Below, piece after piece: positions 54,408-64,000 of a stretch of DNA of 64,000 nucleotides. The DNA lies in the NCBI RefSeq assembly GCF_011405515.1, contig NZ_AP022671.1, forward strand, positions 2,108,001-2,172,000. The letters run 5' to 3'. The stretch comes from Nitrospira sp. KM1 (GTDB lineage Bacteria; Nitrospirota; Nitrospiria; Nitrospirales; Nitrospiraceae). A program made the position numbers and the translations under genes. Each line of letters opens with the position of its first letter. Position 1 is the stretch's first letter. The notes beneath the pieces are model-generated. The model ran no database searches and was not told the DNA's origin. It saw only the letters and a program-made list of their open reading frames with translations.

Positions 54408-55109
54408 TCAGACGCCACTTCTCAGCTTATACCCGATGCCACGCACCGTGAGGATGAGTTTGGGCTTGGCAGGATTGTCTTCGATCTTTTGGCGAAGAGA
54501 GCAAATGTGAACATCAAGGGCATGCTGTTCCAATGCGTATCCTTCTCCCCACACACAGTTCAGCATATCTTGACGGGAAAAGAGACGGCTCGGCGACTCG
54601 AGGAAACACCGGAGGATTTGAAACTCCTTTGGCGTCAACTTCACCAGTTTCCCGTTCACTCGAACCTCATGCCGATCGAGATCCATTTGCACCCCGCCTG
54701 CTTGACATGAAGCAATTGGATGAAGCGAGGATTCCTTTCGACGAAGAATAGCCCGTACGCGTGCAACGAGTTCCCTGGTGGTTTGATTAAAGAGCACAAG
54801 ATCCGCACCACGTTCCAAATCATCGATGTACTCGTCTTCGCTATAGGTCCGGGCTTGAGCGCCGACGGAAATGATGGGCATGGTTCTCAGCGCTTTATGC
54901 ATGCGCAATTTGTCCACCGTGCAGACCTGGCGATCCGCTACGACTAACGCGAGAGAATCCTGTTGAATGGTCTCGAGGGTGCGTGCATTGGATGCTGCCA
55001 AAACCTCATAGCCGCATTCTCTAAAAATTCTTGTGAGAGAGGATCGAGAAGATTCGCTGTTCGTAATAATCAGAATCGTGCCCTTCGTTGCCGCCATGGA
55101 AGTCTGCAT
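54408..55109 (-). CDS. OmpR-family regulator with atypical receiver
   Basis: A 233-residue protein like the one at 50893: receiver-like domain with the acidic pocket replaced (TILIITNSESSRSS) though an Asp remains near the phosphorylation position (LVVADRQVC), and a normal winged helix (LTPKEFQILRCFLESPSRLF, HALDVHICSLRQKIE, LTVRGIGYKL). Phosphate-independent or altered signalling is likely. It is divergent from the phosphate-binding protein gene, with candidate Pho boxes between them. Confidence 0.85.
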   Translation of the reverse strand: MQTSMAATKGTILIITNSESSRSSLTRIFRECGYEVLAASNARTLETIQQDSLALVVADRQVCTVDKLRMHKALRTMPIISVGAQARTYSEDEYIDDLERGADLVLFNQTTRELVARVRAILRRKESSLHPIASCQAGGVQMDLDRHEVRVNGKLVKLTPKEFQILRCFLESPSRLFSRQDMLNCVWGEGYALEQHALDVHICSLRQKIEDNPAKPKLILTVRGIGYKLRSGV

Positions 55110-55289: not shown

Positions 55290-55306
55290 GTTAACGTCGA
55301 ATTAAC
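55290..55306 (+). promoter_or_regulatory. Candidate Pho box upstream of the phosphate-binding protein gene
   Basis: TTAAC (55291-55295) is repeated as TTAAC (55302-55306), exact 11 bp period, in GTTAACGTCGAATTAAC. It lies about 68 bp before the start codon. Confidence 0.55.
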
Positions 55307-55373: not shown

Positions 55374-56435
55374 ATGGGAGTTCTTCATAGAAACAAATAC
55401 ATGAGCAGGCCACAGGTCACCATAGCACTCCTTGTCATCCTCATGGGCTTAGTCACAACCTTGCCTATGGTGTCTGCGCAATTAAAGCCGGACATAGACG
55501 CGAATATTCCCGCTTATCAACCTGTTGCCCCGATATCGGGGCACCTGCTGATTGTCGGCTCGGAAACGATGAAACCTTTAAGCGAAGCTTGGATCGCCGA
55601 TATGCGAGCGTATTACCCGCTACTGACCGGGTCAGTTCAGAGCGGTGGATCGGAAGAAGGTCTGGCGCTACTCTTCGAAGGAAAGGCACCGGTCGCCGCC
55701 ATGTCGAGAAAAATGCGATCTCAAGAGATCGTGGACTTTAAGAGAGAATTTGGATATGAACCGACGGAAGTGCCCGTGGGCATCGATGCACTGGCCGTCT
55801 ATGTTCACAAGGATAACAAGTTGCCTGGCCTCACCCTAGCCGAACTTGACGCGCTGTTCTCCGACGAGAGGCGTCGAGGCCTTTCATATAATCTGCATCG
55901 TTGGACTGAGTTTTTGCTGGAAGGAGATTATCAAGAAGCATCAATTAAGCTTTATAGTCCAAATCGTCTTTCCGGTACGACCACGTTTTTTCGCGAACAC
56001 GTCTGTAACGATGCGCCTTTCAAAAAACGGGTGGAAATCAAGGCAGGCCCGGCCTCGGTTGTGATGGCGGTGGCGCAGGATCGATACGGCATCGGATTTG
56101 GGGGAATCGGCTATCGGACGTCTGATGTACGTCCGGTACCGATCGCTTCGGTGGCCGGGGGACGGTACATCGAGCCCACATTTCAATCGGCAATGGAGGG
56201 GTCCTATCCGCTCCGTAGACCGCTCTACCTGTATATCAATCGGGCTCCTAAAAGCACTCTGTCCCCTGCCGTCGCTGAATTCGTGAAGCTGGCTTTGAGC
56301 TATCAAGGGCAGCAGGTGGTACTGGCCAAAGGGTATTACCCCCTTCCCACCTCCGACATCTCAAGACTGAGGGCGACATGGGCTCCTCCGATTCGTGCTG
56401 CTGCAGAAGACGGACCGCCAAAACTTCGTGACTGA
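55374..56435 (+). CDS. PstS-like phosphate-binding protein
   Basis: A 353-residue exported binding protein of the PBP-like/PstS type, with a signal peptide (PQVTIALLVILMGLVTTLPM). Family phrases include LLIVGSETMKPLSEAWIADM, PVAAMSRKMRSQEIVDFK, VPVGIDALAVYVHKDN, and GYRTSDVRPVPIA. No PstC, PstA or PstB permease gene is nearby, so it may work without an ABC transporter or with one encoded elsewhere. The start may be the Met at 55401. It is followed by an overlapping lipoprotein gene. Confidence 0.85.
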   Translation: MGVLHRNKYMSRPQVTIALLVILMGLVTTLPMVSAQLKPDIDANIPAYQPVAPISGHLLIVGSETMKPLSEAWIADMRAYYPLLTGSVQSGGSEEGLALLFEGKAPVAAMSRKMRSQEIVDFKREFGYEPTEVPVGIDALAVYVHKDNKLPGLTLAELDALFSDERRRGLSYNLHRWTEFLLEGDYQEASIKLYSPNRLSGTTTFFREHVCNDAPFKKRVEIKAGPASVVMAVAQDRYGIGFGGIGYRTSDVRPVPIASVAGGRYIEPTFQSAMEGSYPLRRPLYLYINRAPKSTLSPAVAEFVKLALSYQGQQVVLAKGYYPLPTSDISRLRATWAPPIRAAAEDGPPKLRD

Positions 56436-57209: not shown

Positions 57210-58628
57210 CTAGAAGTTCCACTGTAATTGGAATCTCAAAAGATTTCCTGTTTGCAGCTGATAGGGCGTCTGCGAACAGGGGACACCGAAGGTGGAAACG
57301 CCGCAGGCGCTAAACGGAAGCGCGTCAGGATTTGACGATGTCCGCTGCGTCCACGTGTACATGACCGTTAATTCGACCGCCCGGTTAAATTGGTATTCCA
57401 ACCCCAGCTCCCATTCTCTGACTGAATATCTTGGGGCGTTCGCCTCGAACTTTTTCCCTCCGAAATATTCCTGGACCCTGAAGAATGGGAAAATATTTTT
57501 GCAGATGCTATCGCATCGATAGTTATAGAAAAACTGTAGATATCCGCCTCTCGTCGAGCCCATCACGACTTCCGTGCGGTCTTGATTGAGCTCCGGACCT
57601 CTGCCGATCATGTATTCAGCCTGAAATCCGAACGGTTGAGGATACAGCACGACGTGCCAGGCGACACGCTCGTCCAGATAATTGCCGCCGTTGGTTATGA
57701 GAGGATTTGTGGCAACTCCGCTGGTTAGGTTATTGAGTCCGACGACCGGCGTCGTCGATACCACATATTGGCCGGTATAGGCGTCCATGCCGATCTCGAG
57801 GATTTGCCCGTTGGAAAATTCATGCGGATACATGGTGTGGAAGACCACATGTTTGTTCTTATTGAGATCACGCGTGTTCGGCCCCTGGCCATTATAGATC
57901 CCGATCCCGAACAAGCCATAGTCACCGGATCCCTTGAGACCGCTTTCGACCAGGCGTCGAAACCGTTCACGTATGGTCGTCGGAGCGTAATACAGGAAAA
58001 GCCCTAAATCACGCTCGTTTTGTGCGCCTGAATTGATGGCATCATCCCGGTCCAATGCCAAACGATTCTGACTGGATTGCATGACTTCAAATCCGAACGG
58101 GACTTTTGACAGTCCGGCACGAATTCTCCACTCCTTATTTTCCGTCAAAAACAAATCCGCATAGAAATCACGAAGGACAGCCGTTTGCTCGGTCCCATTG
58201 ACTACTCCGGCGAACTCAGGTTGCACATAGAAGAACACCCGTTCGTGAGGTTGCCCGCTGAAGATGACCCGCGCGCGGCGTAGAAAAAACTCATCGTTTT
58301 TCCCGATCGAACGGTCGCCCTGCGTGCTGACCAACGCATCGTTATTGATATTATGGTTGTAACGCAATTGTGTATACCCTCGGATGCTGATCTTTTCATA
58401 CCAGCGCTCACGAACCGGGACATCGCCGACCCCGCGGCTTTCTTCCAAGGCCTTCGTTTCCCGCTTTTCCTCCTCGGCTTTCAGTTTGACCCACTGATCG
58501 ATCGTGATCTGCTTGTTTTCCAGGAGAAGGTCCTCGAGTTGACCGGCTACCGATATACCTTCCGACATCCATGCACATGCCATCGCTATGCACACCCATA
58601 CCCGGATCCCCCTGTTGCACCTGTTCAT
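57210..58628 (-). CDS. OprP/OprO-like phosphate-selective porin
   Basis: A 472-residue outer-membrane beta barrel with signal peptide (IRVWVCIAMACAWMSEGISV). After a short coiled-coil-like segment (KLKAEEEKRETKALEESRGV), the barrel shows typical porin phrases ISIRGYTQLRYNHN, FFLRRARVIFSGQPHERVFF, RIRAGLSKVPFGFEVMQSS and a final Phe (FQLQWNF). The arrangement is that of the OprO/OprP family, which take up phosphate or polyphosphate. It converges with the lipoprotein gene, stops 18 bp apart. Confidence 0.85.
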   Translation of the reverse strand: MNRCNRGIRVWVCIAMACAWMSEGISVAGQLEDLLLENKQITIDQWVKLKAEEEKRETKALEESRGVGDVPVRERWYEKISIRGYTQLRYNHNINNDALVSTQGDRSIGKNDEFFLRRARVIFSGQPHERVFFYVQPEFAGVVNGTEQTAVLRDFYADLFLTENKEWRIRAGLSKVPFGFEVMQSSQNRLALDRDDAINSGAQNERDLGLFLYYAPTTIRERFRRLVESGLKGSGDYGLFGIGIYNGQGPNTRDLNKNKHVVFHTMYPHEFSNGQILEIGMDAYTGQYVVSTTPVVGLNNLTSGVATNPLITNGGNYLDERVAWHVVLYPQPFGFQAEYMIGRGPELNQDRTEVVMGSTRGGYLQFFYNYRCDSICKNIFPFFRVQEYFGGKKFEANAPRYSVREWELGLEYQFNRAVELTVMYTWTQRTSSNPDALPFSACGVSTFGVPCSQTPYQLQTGNLLRFQLQWNF

Positions 58629-59193: not shown

Positions 59194-60657
59194 TTATGCC
59201 GAACACATTTGTCCGTTCCCCCATGACCGGCGAGCAATACCTGCTAGACCGATTATCCCGGTCGCAAAGAGCACGGCTGCGGCAGGCACAGGAACAGGAG
59301 GAGCCGACGCACCGGGGATGGTCAGCAACCCCGCCGAAGTCAACATCGCGGTGCCCAAATCCGTCACCGCCACATTTCCCTGGCCGCTGTTCTGACGACC
59401 GATCAGGTTGAGTAACGTATCGACTTCAGAAGAAGTCCGGACAGGGAATCCTCCGTTCATAGAGTTATTGCCTGACAGATTCAGAAAGCTGGTGAACGAA
59501 AACTGATCGGCCTTCGGAATGAGGGTTCGTGTATCGTTGATCGCGGCCAGCTGGGTTCCCCATGAAAACAGAGGATTCACAAAGTTGGTCGGAGCAATGC
59601 CAATCTTCTGGGCTGCCGTAAAGCTTCCCGCTACAAGGCTGGACCCAGCGACAAAACTTGTGGGTGCACTGGGAGGCGTTTGCGTGAACCCGAACAGCGT
59701 ATACTGGAGAGGATTCGGGCCGGCCACACCCGACAGATCGATAGAGGTGGAAATACCCGCATTCGGCAAGCTGCCAATCGTCCCCACCTTCTGGACGAGT
59801 TCCGTCTCATTGCCGTAGACGGCCAAGACCAGGTCGCCTGAACCGAACTGAATCGCTTGCGCTTCACCGACCATCCCCGCCATCAGGACAATGGCTCCCA
59901 ACGCCATGGCAACGGCACCTCCTCGGACGGAGGTGAACATACCCTTCATCGCCGTGAGCATTTGAGGACGTCGCTTCAGCCACGCCAACCCGATGCCCAA
60001 CAACCCTGTGCTGTACATGTACACCGCGGCGGGAATTGCGACAGGGGCCGGCGCATCATTGACGACCGTGCCTTCAAGAAAGAACGAAGCGCGATTATTA
60101 TACCCTCCGCGATCGCCTCCCCATCCGGCCTTACGGTCCCCGCCATCGTTGTCACCCCATTTCTTCTGCCCATAGCGGCTGCCACGGTCATCGTTGAGAT
60201 CCTTGAAGAGATGCTTCCATGATAGAGAAAACTCCGAGGTCTCAGGATTGTAGAGTCCGGTTGCCTTCCCGCCGATGTTCCAGAGGCGGATTTCTCCCCC
60301 TTGTTTCTGCGCGAGAAAGAGAGAGGAGAGGTCCAGTGAGATCGAATTCCCGTCGATCGATGCGGTAGGTGCAGATGCACCCAGAATATTGCTGGTCAGG
60401 AGGCTGTACTTAGCTCCATCTTTTCGAAAGGAGCCTCCGATCTCTCCCCAGGATTGATACTCTCCGAGCTTGATCGTTCCTTCCCGGTTGAAGGACCGCT
60501 CGACCACGCGCTCCTGTTTCCCGTTCCAGTTCACTGCACCGCCGGTGAATTCGAGTTGCGTCACCAGGGCGGCGTCGGAAGGTTTGGCCATGCCGCCTCC
60601 GACAATCATCCCGACCGCGAGAACACTTGCCATTACCAGCTGTTTTCCGATACGCAT
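59194..60657 (-). CDS. Fused pair of VPLPA-CTERM-type surface proteins
   Basis: A 487-residue protein that joins two complete modules. Module 1 (about 1-230): signal peptide, LVTQLEFTGGAVNWNG, Gly/Asp-rich region, and a C-terminal sorting signal IPAAVYMYSTGLLGIGLAWL then KRR. Module 2 (about 231-487): a second signal-like helix (AVAMALGAIVLMAGMVGEAQ), IQFGSGDLVLAVYGNETELV, and a final sorting signal VPVPAAAVLFATGIIGLAGI then ARR. No stop separates them. A good internal ribosome site GAGGAGGTG before an ATG suggests module 2 may also be made separately. Modules resemble genes at 61344 and 63291 respectively. Confidence 0.82.
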   Translation of the reverse strand: MRIGKQLVMASVLAVGMIVGGGMAKPSDAALVTQLEFTGGAVNWNGKQERVVERSFNREGTIKLGEYQSWGEIGGSFRKDGAKYSLLTSNILGASAPTASIDGNSISLDLSSLFLAQKQGGEIRLWNIGGKATGLYNPETSEFSLSWKHLFKDLNDDRGSRYGQKKWGDNDGGDRKAGWGGDRGGYNNRASFFLEGTVVNDAPAPVAIPAAVYMYSTGLLGIGLAWLKRRPQMLTAMKGMFTSVRGGAVAMALGAIVLMAGMVGEAQAIQFGSGDLVLAVYGNETELVQKVGTIGSLPNAGISTSIDLSGVAGPNPLQYTLFGFTQTPPSAPTSFVAGSSLVAGSFTAAQKIGIAPTNFVNPLFSWGTQLAAINDTRTLIPKADQFSFTSFLNLSGNNSMNGGFPVRTSSEVDTLLNLIGRQNSGQGNVAVTDLGTAMLTSAGLLTIPGASAPPVPVPAAAVLFATGIIGLAGIARRSWGNGQMCSA

Positions 60658-61343
60658 GATGCTCCATCCTTTCTATCGGCCAACGCGCAGCGCGCGAGGC
60701 AAGGGTGAAATAGTGATGGCCGCATCGTCATCCAGGCCTGTTTCTTTCATGTTACAAGAAAGTTAATGAACGACGTACTTCTGATTACGTTTAACTCACG
60801 AAAATAAAACCTCGAAACTCGCCATCCAATCTCTACCGATCAGACAGAATAGAGTTAAGGTCGTTCTATATCGTGGCGGGAGCAATGCGACGCATCTTCT
60901 GACATTGCCGTGAACAGAAAGAGTCGACATCGGCTTCGATGATTTCACTCATCGCACCAACGACGACTTTGATCACTCCAGGCTTGAACAGGTCTATGGT
61001 CCGGGATCACATAATAGAAGGTGTGAATGTGCGAGTTCACAGAGACACCCGCGAAGACTCTGTCAGTTACAAGCACAGTATGGACGATCGCATCGTGCGC
61101 GAATGTTTACGTAGCATCGAAATGGAGCTGTCGGACGGAATAGGCTCCGGTTTGTCGTGCGCAGAGAATCCGCAGGCGATGAATGAGTATTCGCTGAAGT
61201 AGAACGCGCTTGGTGCTTGAGCACCAAGCGCCATGTTCTTCCTCACAATGGAAATACTACGTGACTGCTTGCAATGTGCGGGGTGATCTGAGCGGGCAGG
61301 GCGACCAATGATCTCGCGGCCGCCCTGCAATGATGGGGGAATA
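60658..61343. other. 690 bp gap with hairpins, no convincing gene
   Basis: A perfect 11 bp hairpin GCGCTTGGTGC-TTGA-GCACCAAGCGC is at 61206-61231, and an 8 bp dyad GCAGGGCG/CGCCCTGC at 61296-61328 lies just after the stop of the minus-strand gene. Neither has a T tract. An 87-codon frame at 60939-61202 is doubtful. Confidence 0.5.
60751..60766 (-). promoter_or_regulatory. Candidate Pho box upstream of the fused surface protein
   Basis: On the minus strand TTAAC and GTAAC lie 11 bp apart (ATTAACTTTCTTGTAAC). It is about 95 bp before the start codon, a normal distance for an activator site. Confidence 0.5.
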
Positions 61344-61955
61344 CTATGCAGCGAACCGTCGCATACGTGCGGCAACAATGCCAGAGAGTCCGGTCAGAAA
61401 GAGACCGAACGCCGCCGGCAACGGCACGACTGCGACCTGCGCAGTACCATTCAGCGTGAACACGAGAGACGTCCAACCTTTTCCTGGGATTGGATTCGAG
61501 TCAATCCAACTGAGGTTCGCAAATGCGTTGGTGGAAGGATTAAATACACCCGTCGCCTCACCCCCAATATTGACCGACACTCCCGATCCGAGTCCCGGTC
61601 CGGTTAAGCCTGCCGACAGCGACGTCAGATCCGACGTAATCGTCGAACCGTTCGTGTTGCCGGTCGGCACAGGATTGGGACCGCTCGTGAACAATTGGAA
61701 TGTATAACCTGCAACCGTGACGGGGGGAATGATGTTGGGCAAGGGTTGGTACTGGCCCATGACGATCGTTCCATTCTGGGTAAAATTTTCACTCAATACG
61801 GTCGTGCTGCCCAGTTTGAACGCCACCGATCCACCGGTGAAGTCGAGTTGCGTGACGAGCGAAGCGTAAGCCGAAGAAGCTGCCAGCCACAGAGCCATAC
61901 CTGCGCAGGCGGCGAGTATCTGAGGCGGATTCCGAAAGAGATTCATGATGATCAC
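61344..61955 (-). CDS. VPLPA-CTERM-type surface protein, module-1 paralogue
   Basis: A 203-residue exported protein: signal peptide (MALWLAASSAYA), LVTQLDFTGGSVAFKLGS, a central beta-rich part, and a C-terminal sorting signal VVPLPAAFGLFLTGLSGIVA then ARMRR. The opening LVTQL(D/E)FTGG matches module 1 of the fused protein at 59194. Such C-terminal signals are cut by exosortase, after which the protein is attached to the cell surface; no exosortase gene is in the window. Confidence 0.83.
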   Translation of the reverse strand: MIIMNLFRNPPQILAACAGMALWLAASSAYASLVTQLDFTGGSVAFKLGSTTVLSENFTQNGTIVMGQYQPLPNIIPPVTVAGYTFQLFTSGPNPVPTGNTNGSTITSDLTSLSAGLTGPGLGSGVSVNIGGEATGVFNPSTNAFANLSWIDSNPIPGKGWTSLVFTLNGTAQVAVVPLPAAFGLFLTGLSGIVAARMRRFAA

Positions 61956-62009: not shown

Positions 62010-63230
62010 TTACTGACGGCAGGCCGTTTCTCCACCGCCGATGTAGCTGATGGGGCCGCGGTCTTGGTTCTTCAGCACGAACGATTCCGGAGTTGCCGCG
62101 CTGAACAATTTGACCCAGAAGCCGGGAAGCGGATTGTTGTCCACCATATTGGTGATCAAGCTATCCAGTTTGGCCTGAGTGCCAGCAACTCCCGTCAGGG
62201 TATCCAGGCTGGTCGTACGCTTCACGACATTCCAGTTGGCCCAGAAGGGATATCGCCCGCATGCCAGATCCAACTTTGATGCAGCAGTACCAGAGGGAGC
62301 CGACGCTCCGCCGATCTTCACCGCATAGGCGCCGCCTGTCAAACCGGGGACGCTATCGCTGTCGATATAACCGATCGAACTCGGATGAGTAGAGACGCAG
62401 GTCGCCATATTCCCGGAACCAGAATTGAATGGTTGACTCGGGAAATCCGTCTCATTCGCGTTAACAAAGAGCACTTCATCAGCCGTCGCCTTCGTTCCCG
62501 ACCCTGCAGATCGAAGACACAGATCGATGGTGCTGGATCCGCCGCTGACTGCAAGACCAAGCGTGGTCCAATCCGTCACTGCCCCGGCAAAAATCTGCTC
62601 GATCTGTTCCCGAGTCAGACTCTGGAGCGGCTGCGGCGAGCCTGAGACGAATTGCCGCACGTTGCCGCCGACGATGATCGAGAACGGCACGCTCACGACC
62701 GGATTGCTGGACACTCCCGTCTCTGCCACAATTCCGGTTGCCCCGCCACCAGTCTGATGGAATGAGGCAGCCTGGACATCTGAGGCGCCCCAATGCACGT
62801 TCTGATTGGCCAGGACGACCGTAGAGCACACCCGCTGGTTGACATTTTTCCCACCGATGACAACCGTCGTCGCTCCTGCGCAGGTGGATGCGGCGGTGTT
62901 GATAAAGCTAGTCTGCTTGGGAAACGCACCTTGGTTGAGTTGATATCCGGCGATCGAGTTAAGTGCGTGGTACCGCACGATGAGATCGTCCGCTCCCCCG
63001 TTGGTCTTGCACTGCCACTCTGTTTCATTCGGTGGATTAGCACTGTCCTTGAAAAATGTCGGTACAGGACTCGCATCGCAGATAAACACCGGCGCCAGCC
63101 CGGCGTATTGCCGTCCGGCAGAAGATCCGGTGCCGTTGAGAACGATGGTCGCCGCCTGAGCCGATTCGGCGGCCAGCGCGAGGCTGACCATTCCGAGACA
63201 GGCCAAGGCCATTTTAGTGGTTCCGTTCAT
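62010..63230 (-). CDS. PstS-like phosphate-binding protein, second copy
   Basis: A 406-residue exported protein with a signal peptide (MALACLGMVSLALAAESAQA) and PBP-like/PstS phrases: GTGSSAGRQYAGLAPVF, VPFSIIVGGNVRQFVSGSPQ, LTREQIEQIFAGAVTDWTTL, LRSAGSGTKATADEV and SSIGYIDSDSVPGLTGG. It is not closely similar to the copy at 55374. No sorting signal at the C-terminus. ATG 63230 follows TAAAGGAGTGCAAC. It lies between two surface-protein genes on the same strand, so it may form an operon with them. Confidence 0.82.
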   Translation of the reverse strand: MNGTTKMALACLGMVSLALAAESAQAATIVLNGTGSSAGRQYAGLAPVFICDASPVPTFFKDSANPPNETEWQCKTNGGADDLIVRYHALNSIAGYQLNQGAFPKQTSFINTAASTCAGATTVVIGGKNVNQRVCSTVVLANQNVHWGASDVQAASFHQTGGGATGIVAETGVSSNPVVSVPFSIIVGGNVRQFVSGSPQPLQSLTREQIEQIFAGAVTDWTTLGLAVSGGSSTIDLCLRSAGSGTKATADEVLFVNANETDFPSQPFNSGSGNMATCVSTHPSSIGYIDSDSVPGLTGGAYAVKIGGASAPSGTAASKLDLACGRYPFWANWNVVKRTTSLDTLTGVAGTQAKLDSLITNMVDNNPLPGFWVKLFSAATPESFVLKNQDRGPISYIGGGETACRQ

Positions 63231-63290
63231 GTTGCACTCCTTTAGCAAGAAAAAATTTGTGATGTTGTCATTTCGACAATGTTTGCACTC

Positions 63291-64000
63291 TCACGCGGTC
63301 ATGTTGAAAGACCGGCGGGCCACTCCGACCAGACCGATCATCCCTGTCGCGAATAACACGGCTGCAGCAGGGATGGGTACGGCTGAAATCGTAAACTGTC
63401 CGGCAGCGGTCAGCAGGGCCGTGCCGAGGTTGGCCAATGCCACGTTCCCTTGCGGGGCATTGTTTCGCCCGATGATATTGAGCAGCGTATCCACATCGGA
63501 AGACATGCGGACGGGGAAGCCGCCGTTCAGGCTGTTGTTCCCTGACTGATTGAGAAAGGTGCTGAATGACAATGCATCGGCCTTCGGAATGTTGAGCCGC
63601 GTGTCGTTCGCCGTCACCAGCTGGGTCCCCCATGACACCAACGGATTGACATAGTTGGTAGGAGTAATGGCCACCTTTTGACCCGTAGTGAACGTTTCAG
63701 CCGCAATGCTCGAGCCTGCGAGAAAATTGCTCGGAGCACTCGGCGGCGTCTGGTTGAATCCCAGCAGCGTATATTGAAGCGCGTTGGCTCCTCCCACTTG
63801 TGACAAGTCAATCGTCGTCGAGATCCCGCTTGCAATCCCTCCGATCGTTCCCACTTTCTGCACCAACTCGGTGTTGTTGCCATAGACAACCAATACCAAG
63901 TCCCCCGGTCCAAACTGTTCCGCCTGAGCCTCACTGCCCAACCCGGTCACCATGAGTGCAGCTCCCATCACGGCTGCAGCAGCGGCACGTCCGACGGATT
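63291..64000 (-). CDS. VPLPA-CTERM-type surface protein, module-2 paralogue (5' end outside window)
   Basis: The frame is open to the window edge; the last codons (GRAAAAAVMGAALMVTGLGS) are the end of a signal-like helix matching the fused protein, so the start is upstream of 64000. The mature part EQFGPGDLVLVVYGNNTELV and NGGFPVRMSSDVDTLLNIIG is highly similar to module 2 at 59194. It ends with the sorting signal VPIPAAAVLFATGMIGLVGV then ARR. It precedes the PstS-like gene by about 60 bp on the same strand. Confidence 0.83.
   Translation of the reverse strand, partial: SVGRAAAAAVMGAALMVTGLGSEAQAEQFGPGDLVLVVYGNNTELVQKVGTIGGIASGISTTIDLSQVGGANALQYTLLGFNQTPPSAPSNFLAGSSIAAETFTTGQKVAITPTNYVNPLVSWGTQLVTANDTRLNIPKADALSFSTFLNQSGNNSLNGGFPVRMSSDVDTLLNIIGRNNAPQGNVALANLGTALLTAAGQFTISAVPIPAAAVLFATGMIGLVGVARRSFNMTA

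Follow-up and report, generated by a model that had tools for sequence, protein, structure and literature searches.

PEP-CTERM and VPLPA-CTERM sorting signals have been described as C-terminal. A substrate of this kind (TIGR03370, TIGR02595) has a signal peptide, an exported domain, a proline-containing motif, a transmembrane helix (TM) and a basic end, and it is handled by an exosortase such as XrtD (TIGR04152), the VPLPA-specific type. In polyproteins with internal signal peptides, stop-transfer and signal sequences alternate, and proteases of the host release the individual products. Of PEP-CTERM regions, 87% end no more than ten residues from the C-terminus; the few that are followed by long tails, and that are more variable in sequence, have been suspected to be non-functional (Haft et al. 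2006, PMC1569441).

The gene described here, from a window of 64,000 nucleotides of the genome of the nitrite-oxidizing bacterium Nitrospira sp. KM1, will be referred to as A::B, after its two modules. Each half of A::B likewise has a signal peptide, a domain, a proline motif, a TM and a basic end. Compared to the usual substrates, however, there are two complete substrates in one open reading frame, and one of the sorting signals is internal. The alternation of stop-transfer and signal sequences, with cuts by proteases of the host cell, is similar to that in the polyprotein precursors, but A::B is unrelated to them by descent and its cleavage would be expected from an exosortase. No PEP-CTERM polyprotein, or protein with two sorting signals, was found in the searched literature. 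The origin of A::B is ordinary, by gene duplication and fusion. What is unusual is that a complete internal sorting signal is kept and is followed by a second complete export-and-sort module, which makes the gene a natural case in which to test if exosortase cleavage depends on a free C-terminus.

Organization of the fused gene

A::B is one ATG-started frame with no internal stop, both in the list of open reading frames and in the sequence. Module A comprises residues 1-232, and module B residues 233-487.

59194..60657 (-), fused gene A::B, 487 amino acids, with the ATG start at 60657 and the TAA stop at 59194-59196
60571..60657 (-), predicted signal peptide of module A, residues 1-29, with a hydrophobic helix at 3-24; Ala29 is invariant in the A family
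60055..60570 (-), mature beta-rich domain of module A, residues 30-201 (AlphaFold2)
59968..60054 (-), internal sorting-type signal APAPVAIPAAVYMYSTGLLGIGLAWLKRR, residues 202-230, assigned from identity to homologs and a predicted helix at 208-228
59959..59964 (-), junction of Gln232 and Met233, with neither stop nor spacer in the sequence
59854..59961 (-), predicted signal peptide of module B, residues 233-268, with A-Q-A at its end and a hydrophobic helix at 240-269
59916-59924 (-), Shine-Dalgarno-like GAGGAGGTG, encoding part of RGGA, with an 8-nt spacer to an in-frame ATG at 59905-59907
59296..59853 (-), mature domain of module B, residues 269-454, 66-67% identical to the gene at 63291
59227..59295 (-), C-terminal VPLPA-CTERM signal VPVPAAAVLFATGIIGLAGIARR, residues 455-477 (TIGR03370)

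The first signal peptide (MRIGKQLVMASVLAVGMIVGGGMAKPSDAA) is followed by the beta-rich domain and then by APAPVAIPAAVYMYSTGLLGIGLAWLKRRPQ, which runs directly into the second signal peptide (MLTAMKGMFTSVRGGAVAMALGAIVLMAGMVGEAQA), domain B and VPVPAAAVLFATGIIGLAGIARRSWGNGQMCSA. The preliminary description had recognized signal peptide, domain, sorting signal, second signal-like helix, domain and sorting signal with no stop between them. The sequence bears this out, and A::B was correctly viewed as two sorted surface proteins fused such that one sorting signal is internal. The signal-peptide helices at the N-terminus of both modules are evident from hydropathy, with conserved alanines at the cleavage sites. 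The second one retains the A-x-A cleavage site of the B family: Ala266 and Ala268 are invariant in a first family alignment, while in a second one Ala268 is invariant and Ala266 nearly so.

The terminal signal of module B (residues 455-477) passes the TIGR03370 model narrowly, with 25.4 bits against a cut-off of 25.35. The internal signal of module A gave no match to this model. It is a V-A-I-P-A variant, with the first proline of VPLPA replaced, and the unfused A homologs carry this variant as well, at their C-terminus. The tripartite order (PVAIPAA, helix 208-228, LKRR) is kept as in these homologs, but here another 257 residues come after it. The internal signal is identical to that of both the unfused KM1 paralog and the G003 homolog at 22 of 29 positions (76%), compared to 61-63% for the whole module, and on this basis it appears not to be decaying. 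Unlike the suspected long-tailed PEP-CTERM regions, it does not look degenerate. Relative to the paralogs, dN/dS is 0.14 for module A and 0.12 for module B. These ratios, which average over pre-fusion time and are calculated with synonymous sites close to saturation, are signatures that point to purifying selection on both halves. KM1 has two XrtD exosortases, scoring 538 and 529 bits with TIGR04152 (cut-off 400).

In the AlphaFold2 model of module A, based on 15 sequences, pLDDT is over 90 across most of residues 34-150, and there is a terminal helix at 208-228. Module B is modeled as a mixed domain with pLDDT of about 85 and a helix at residues 227-248 of the module. Neither module has a Foldseek match at E<=0.001. 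The best Z scores in the VIA fold comparison, 7.0 for module A (the OmpA barrel and beta-barrel look-alikes) and 2.3 for module B, are below the informative level. A sequence search of the PDB gave nothing for module A and chance-level matches alone for module B, and the fused protein is unmatched in Pfam and PHROGs. For the flocculation protein PepA model (NF033554, curated cut-off 80), B2 and A2 (see below) score 25.6 and 20.4 bits, both below the cut-off, and the fused protein is absent among the matches listed.

The phosphate-linked cluster

A::B is located in a gene cluster conserved in Nitrospiraceae, with the order B, PstS-like, A2, A and porin O/P, followed by a hypothetical gene, PstS and a PhoB-type regulator.

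63291..64000 (-), B2, the unfused sister of module B, running past the window edge; its true start is MQDSKALK after AAAGGAGGAAGT
62010..63248 (-), PstS-like substrate-binding protein (PF12849, 7e-11), found between B and A2 in relatives
61344..61955 (-), A2, a separate sorted protein and distant relative of module A (33%)
60750..60766 (-), PhoB/PhoP-box-like TTAAC-N6-GTAACA direct repeat TTAACTTTCTTGTAACA with an 11-bp period, about 93 nt upstream of A::B
57210..58628 (-), phosphate-selective porin O/P family gene (PF07396, 7e-31), downstream of the fusion
55374..56435 (+), PstS-type phosphate-binding protein (PF12849, 5e-30), with a TAACN7TAAC box at 55292-55306
54408..55109 (-), OmpR/PhoB-type response regulator (Trans_reg_C, 3e-26), beside PstS in relatives too

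The porin is a conserved neighbor of A, the order in relatives being A-porin or A-B-porin. Genes for a PhoB-type regulator, PstS, a PstS-like protein, an OprO/P-type porin and exosortase-sorted proteins are clustered both between 54408 and 64000 of the window and at the loci L122, L128, L130, L133 and L138-L140 of relatives. Through this locus, sorted surface proteins of nitrite oxidizers are linked to a cluster for phosphate acquisition.

The TAAC-N7-TAAC pattern resembles PhoB/PhoP boxes. Four copies are present in the window, compared to 0.44 expected, and 0 of 100 shuffles reached this number; their positions are 8211, 53478 (-), 55292 and 60751 (-). Measured from the start of the box, the distance to the fused gene is 108 nt, and the box is 106-115 nt upstream of the unfused A genes of G003 and G002. 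The background is 1% per 300 nt; four of 36 A genes have a box, and it is conserved only in the two nearest orthologs. By its resemblance to PhoB/PhoP boxes and its fit with the surrounding phosphate genes, the copy in front of A::B is a putative regulator site.

Adjoining the KM1 cluster (L026:7461-16839), inspection by eye finds a TonB-like protein, ExbD-like and ExbB-like genes, and a GspC-like gene. A filamentous-haemagglutinin-like protein of 1461 amino acids and a 610-amino-acid gene resembling its outer-membrane transporter are also located there.

Unfused counterparts and the origin of the fusion

Module B and B2 are 66-67% identical and are sisters in the tree (support 100/99). Module A and A2, on the other hand, are distant homologs, 33% identical and in separate clades of the A tree. 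The earlier proposal that both parts equal separate genes of the window thus holds for B with the gene at 63291 but not for A with the gene at 61344. A close paralog of module A (58-62% identity) is located outside the window, at 4.42 Mb. As judged from sequence, module A corresponds in KM1 to a separate gene of the cluster, which relatives have in unfused form.

The locus comparison in relatives that had been suggested as a check finds A and B as separate neighbors, both elsewhere in KM1 and in three other genomes. At 4.42 Mb, KM1 has an unfused A-B pair with a TAA stop, a 76-nt spacer and separate starts. G161, G097 and G163, with the same cluster order as KM1, carry an additional B gene (B′), located between A and the porin at the position taken in KM1 by the B half of A::B, and A and B′ are separate genes. 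The spacer between them is about 617 nt in G097 and G163, and in G097 it contains an ArsR-type gene (PF01022, 3e-12). In several other relatives, the porin directly follows A. The KM1 pair and these three loci match A::B in their two protein families and in the order of these but, unlike A::B, they have a stop, a spacer and their own ribosome-binding sites. Unfused A genes terminate 0-16 residues beyond the sorting signal, and other sorting-signal genes in the KM1 loci examined stop soon after it, barring one regulator. Relative to the unfused A genes, the stop of A, any spacer and the original ribosome-binding site of B are all missing from the fused gene, so that the change is not just a single mutated stop codon.

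In the A tree, the fused A is the sister of the KM1 paralog, followed by the G003 gene, with the G002 gene in the same group. In the B tree, the fused B is the sister of KM1 B2, and G161 B′ is the sister of G161 B; the B copies were therefore made or homogenized in each lineage. The pattern within lineages suggests repeated duplication or gene conversion. The four B copies of G097 and G163 form one tight group. From these placements, the B half would be derived from a copy of B2, and A would have lost its stop. An origin from the 4.42-Mb A-B pair by loss of the stop was considered and rejected, as the fused B groups with B2 and not with the B of that pair.

About one in three residues differ between the fused B and B2, and with synonymous sites near saturation this indicates that the duplication is not recent, although the fusion itself may be younger. 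The preliminary description had left two options, recent loss of a stop and synthesis of a two-part precursor. The stop of A was indeed lost relative to unfused A genes, but the word recently fits poorly with the divergence between B and B2, and the two options are not exclusive.

A profile search for the A family in 175 family genomes finds, among the matches listed, KM1 alone running into B, while three of the A-domain matches listed run into a regulator. No second A::B is found in 395 phylum genomes with the full-length protein. A contig scan of genomes with the fused protein as query gave no relative, and a scan of contigs with the A profile gave 16 loci, with the A::B fusion in none. A::B is a real, well-formed rearrangement that comes, so far, from a single genome.

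A predicted two-product precursor and its alternatives

The reading that we favor, with moderate confidence, is that A::B arose by in-frame fusion of neighboring exosortase-substrate genes and yields a two-product precursor. A copy of the first gene of the cluster (B) would have come to lie behind A, and loss of the A stop, any spacer and the ribosome-binding site of B would have placed the start Met of B directly after Gln232 of A. This may have been deletion of a spacer or landing of the B copy in place. The promoter of A would drive transcription, and the product would be a single polypeptide. With the topology assigned by the positive-inside rule, the first signal peptide would export domain A, the internal VAIPAA-TM-KRR segment would halt transfer, and a basic loop of roughly 15 residues (KRR..K..R) would be kept inside. 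The second signal peptide would then restart export, for domain B, until the terminal VPVPAA-TM-RR segment halts transfer again. This topology counts two exports, two signal-peptidase sites and two exosortase-type sites. Signal peptidase I would cut after both A-x-A-type sites; its cut at AQA would by itself part A from B, and the exosortase would then trim each of them. With XrtD predicted to cut at each sorting motif, the two mature surface proteins would be formed in equal amounts. We infer the topology, both cleavages, a Pho-type promoter, the equal stoichiometry and the exact DNA joining event; probably, both surface proteins are cut by the cell from a single precursor.

The internal segment could also be only a membrane anchor. 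Module A and a two-helix hairpin would then stay in the inner membrane, while B, once released by signal peptidase I, would be sorted by means of the C-terminal signal that it carries. The A-type motif V-A-[IL]-P-A, without the first proline of VPLPA and missed by TIGR03370, is consistent with such a role, and in the related regulator fusions (see below) a sorting-type TM precedes a cytoplasmic DNA-binding domain and possibly anchors it. We consider an anchor unlikely, however, as the motif is conserved at the extreme C-terminus of unfused homologs, where sorting is the ordinary reading, and the internal copy has not relaxed. It had also been proposed that the internal GAGGAGGTG could start B alone. 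The cell would then make A (or A::B) together with an independent B beginning at Met251. The site is indeed present and in frame. The pattern AGGAGGTG-N4-9-ATG has no other case in the about 198 kb of KM1 DNA examined, and the corresponding region of the sister gene B2 does not contain GAGGAGGTG, so the site either arose in the fused gene or disappeared from B2. The rest of the evidence makes internal initiation decidedly improbable: the GGAGG core and the ATG are separated by 10 nt, GGAGG-start pairs of the weaker kind occur frequently (117 on both strands of the same about 198 kb), the product would begin with MALGAIVLMAG, a signal peptide without a basic n-region, and such a start is not needed for making B, as the frame is open regardless.

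A fusion that is merely tolerated, with one half no longer properly exported or used, would fit its occurrence in a single genome and the intact paralogs of both halves in KM1, whose redundancy could mask a loss. Neither half has a frameshift, a stop or lost signal residues, however, and both are under purifying selection with the key invariant residues kept, which leaves a neutral or decaying accident very improbable. An error of assembly or sequencing that hides a stop or frameshift is the least credible, with an extremely low likelihood. A TGA in the +1 frame overlaps the ATGAAG start of B, in the ATGA arrangement typical of coupled genes, so that one indel would in principle suffice to mask two coupled genes. 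No homopolymer at the junction is longer than 3, however, and KM1 is a pure isolate with a manually curated genome of 4,509,223 bp at 119.5-fold coverage (Illumina reads DRR084142; PMC7522533), which makes a missed stop unlikely.

Internal sorting-type signals of another kind are present in relatives.

L135:8064-9707 (+), G167, membrane-tethered regulator with an exported domain, a sorting-type TM, a cytoplasmic pseudo-receiver and a winged helix
L136:4059-5702 (-), G173, regulator of the same layout
L134:3600-5582 (+), G095, regulator of the same layout
L137:3257-4732 (-), further membrane-tethered regulator
L175:1075-2475 (+), further membrane-tethered regulator, in KM1

The G167 and G173 proteins consist of a sorted A2-like part that runs on after its TM into the pseudo-receiver and a winged helix of the PhoB/OmpR type (Trans_reg_C, 2e-16). 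G182 and G191 have instead two neighboring genes, one A2-like and the other for a membrane-bound regulator. The genes in G167 and G173 are therefore also fusions, independent of that in KM1, and this parallel indicates that the family tolerates an internal sorting-type TM. The regulator fusion in G095 belongs to a different clade. As in A::B, an in-frame fusion involving the A/A2 family has placed a sorting-type signal inside these three proteins; unlike in A::B, the part after the TM is cytoplasmic, with no second signal peptide or exported protein.

This shared tolerance could link surface sorting to gene control. We raise as a tentative possibility that exosortase-type signals work away from the C-terminus, such that the internal cut in KM1 frees the first product and sorting in relatives is read by a PhoB-like transcription factor. 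The internal motifs of the regulator fusions score under the model cut-offs. A search with the G167 protein as query gave long open reading frames, spanning the TM region and the regulator part, in some 25 family genomes, including KM1 (L175). A VPxPA-like motif is present in the TM in about nine of them and is degenerate in the remainder, KM1 included. Membrane-tethered regulators are often located beside sorted-protein genes.
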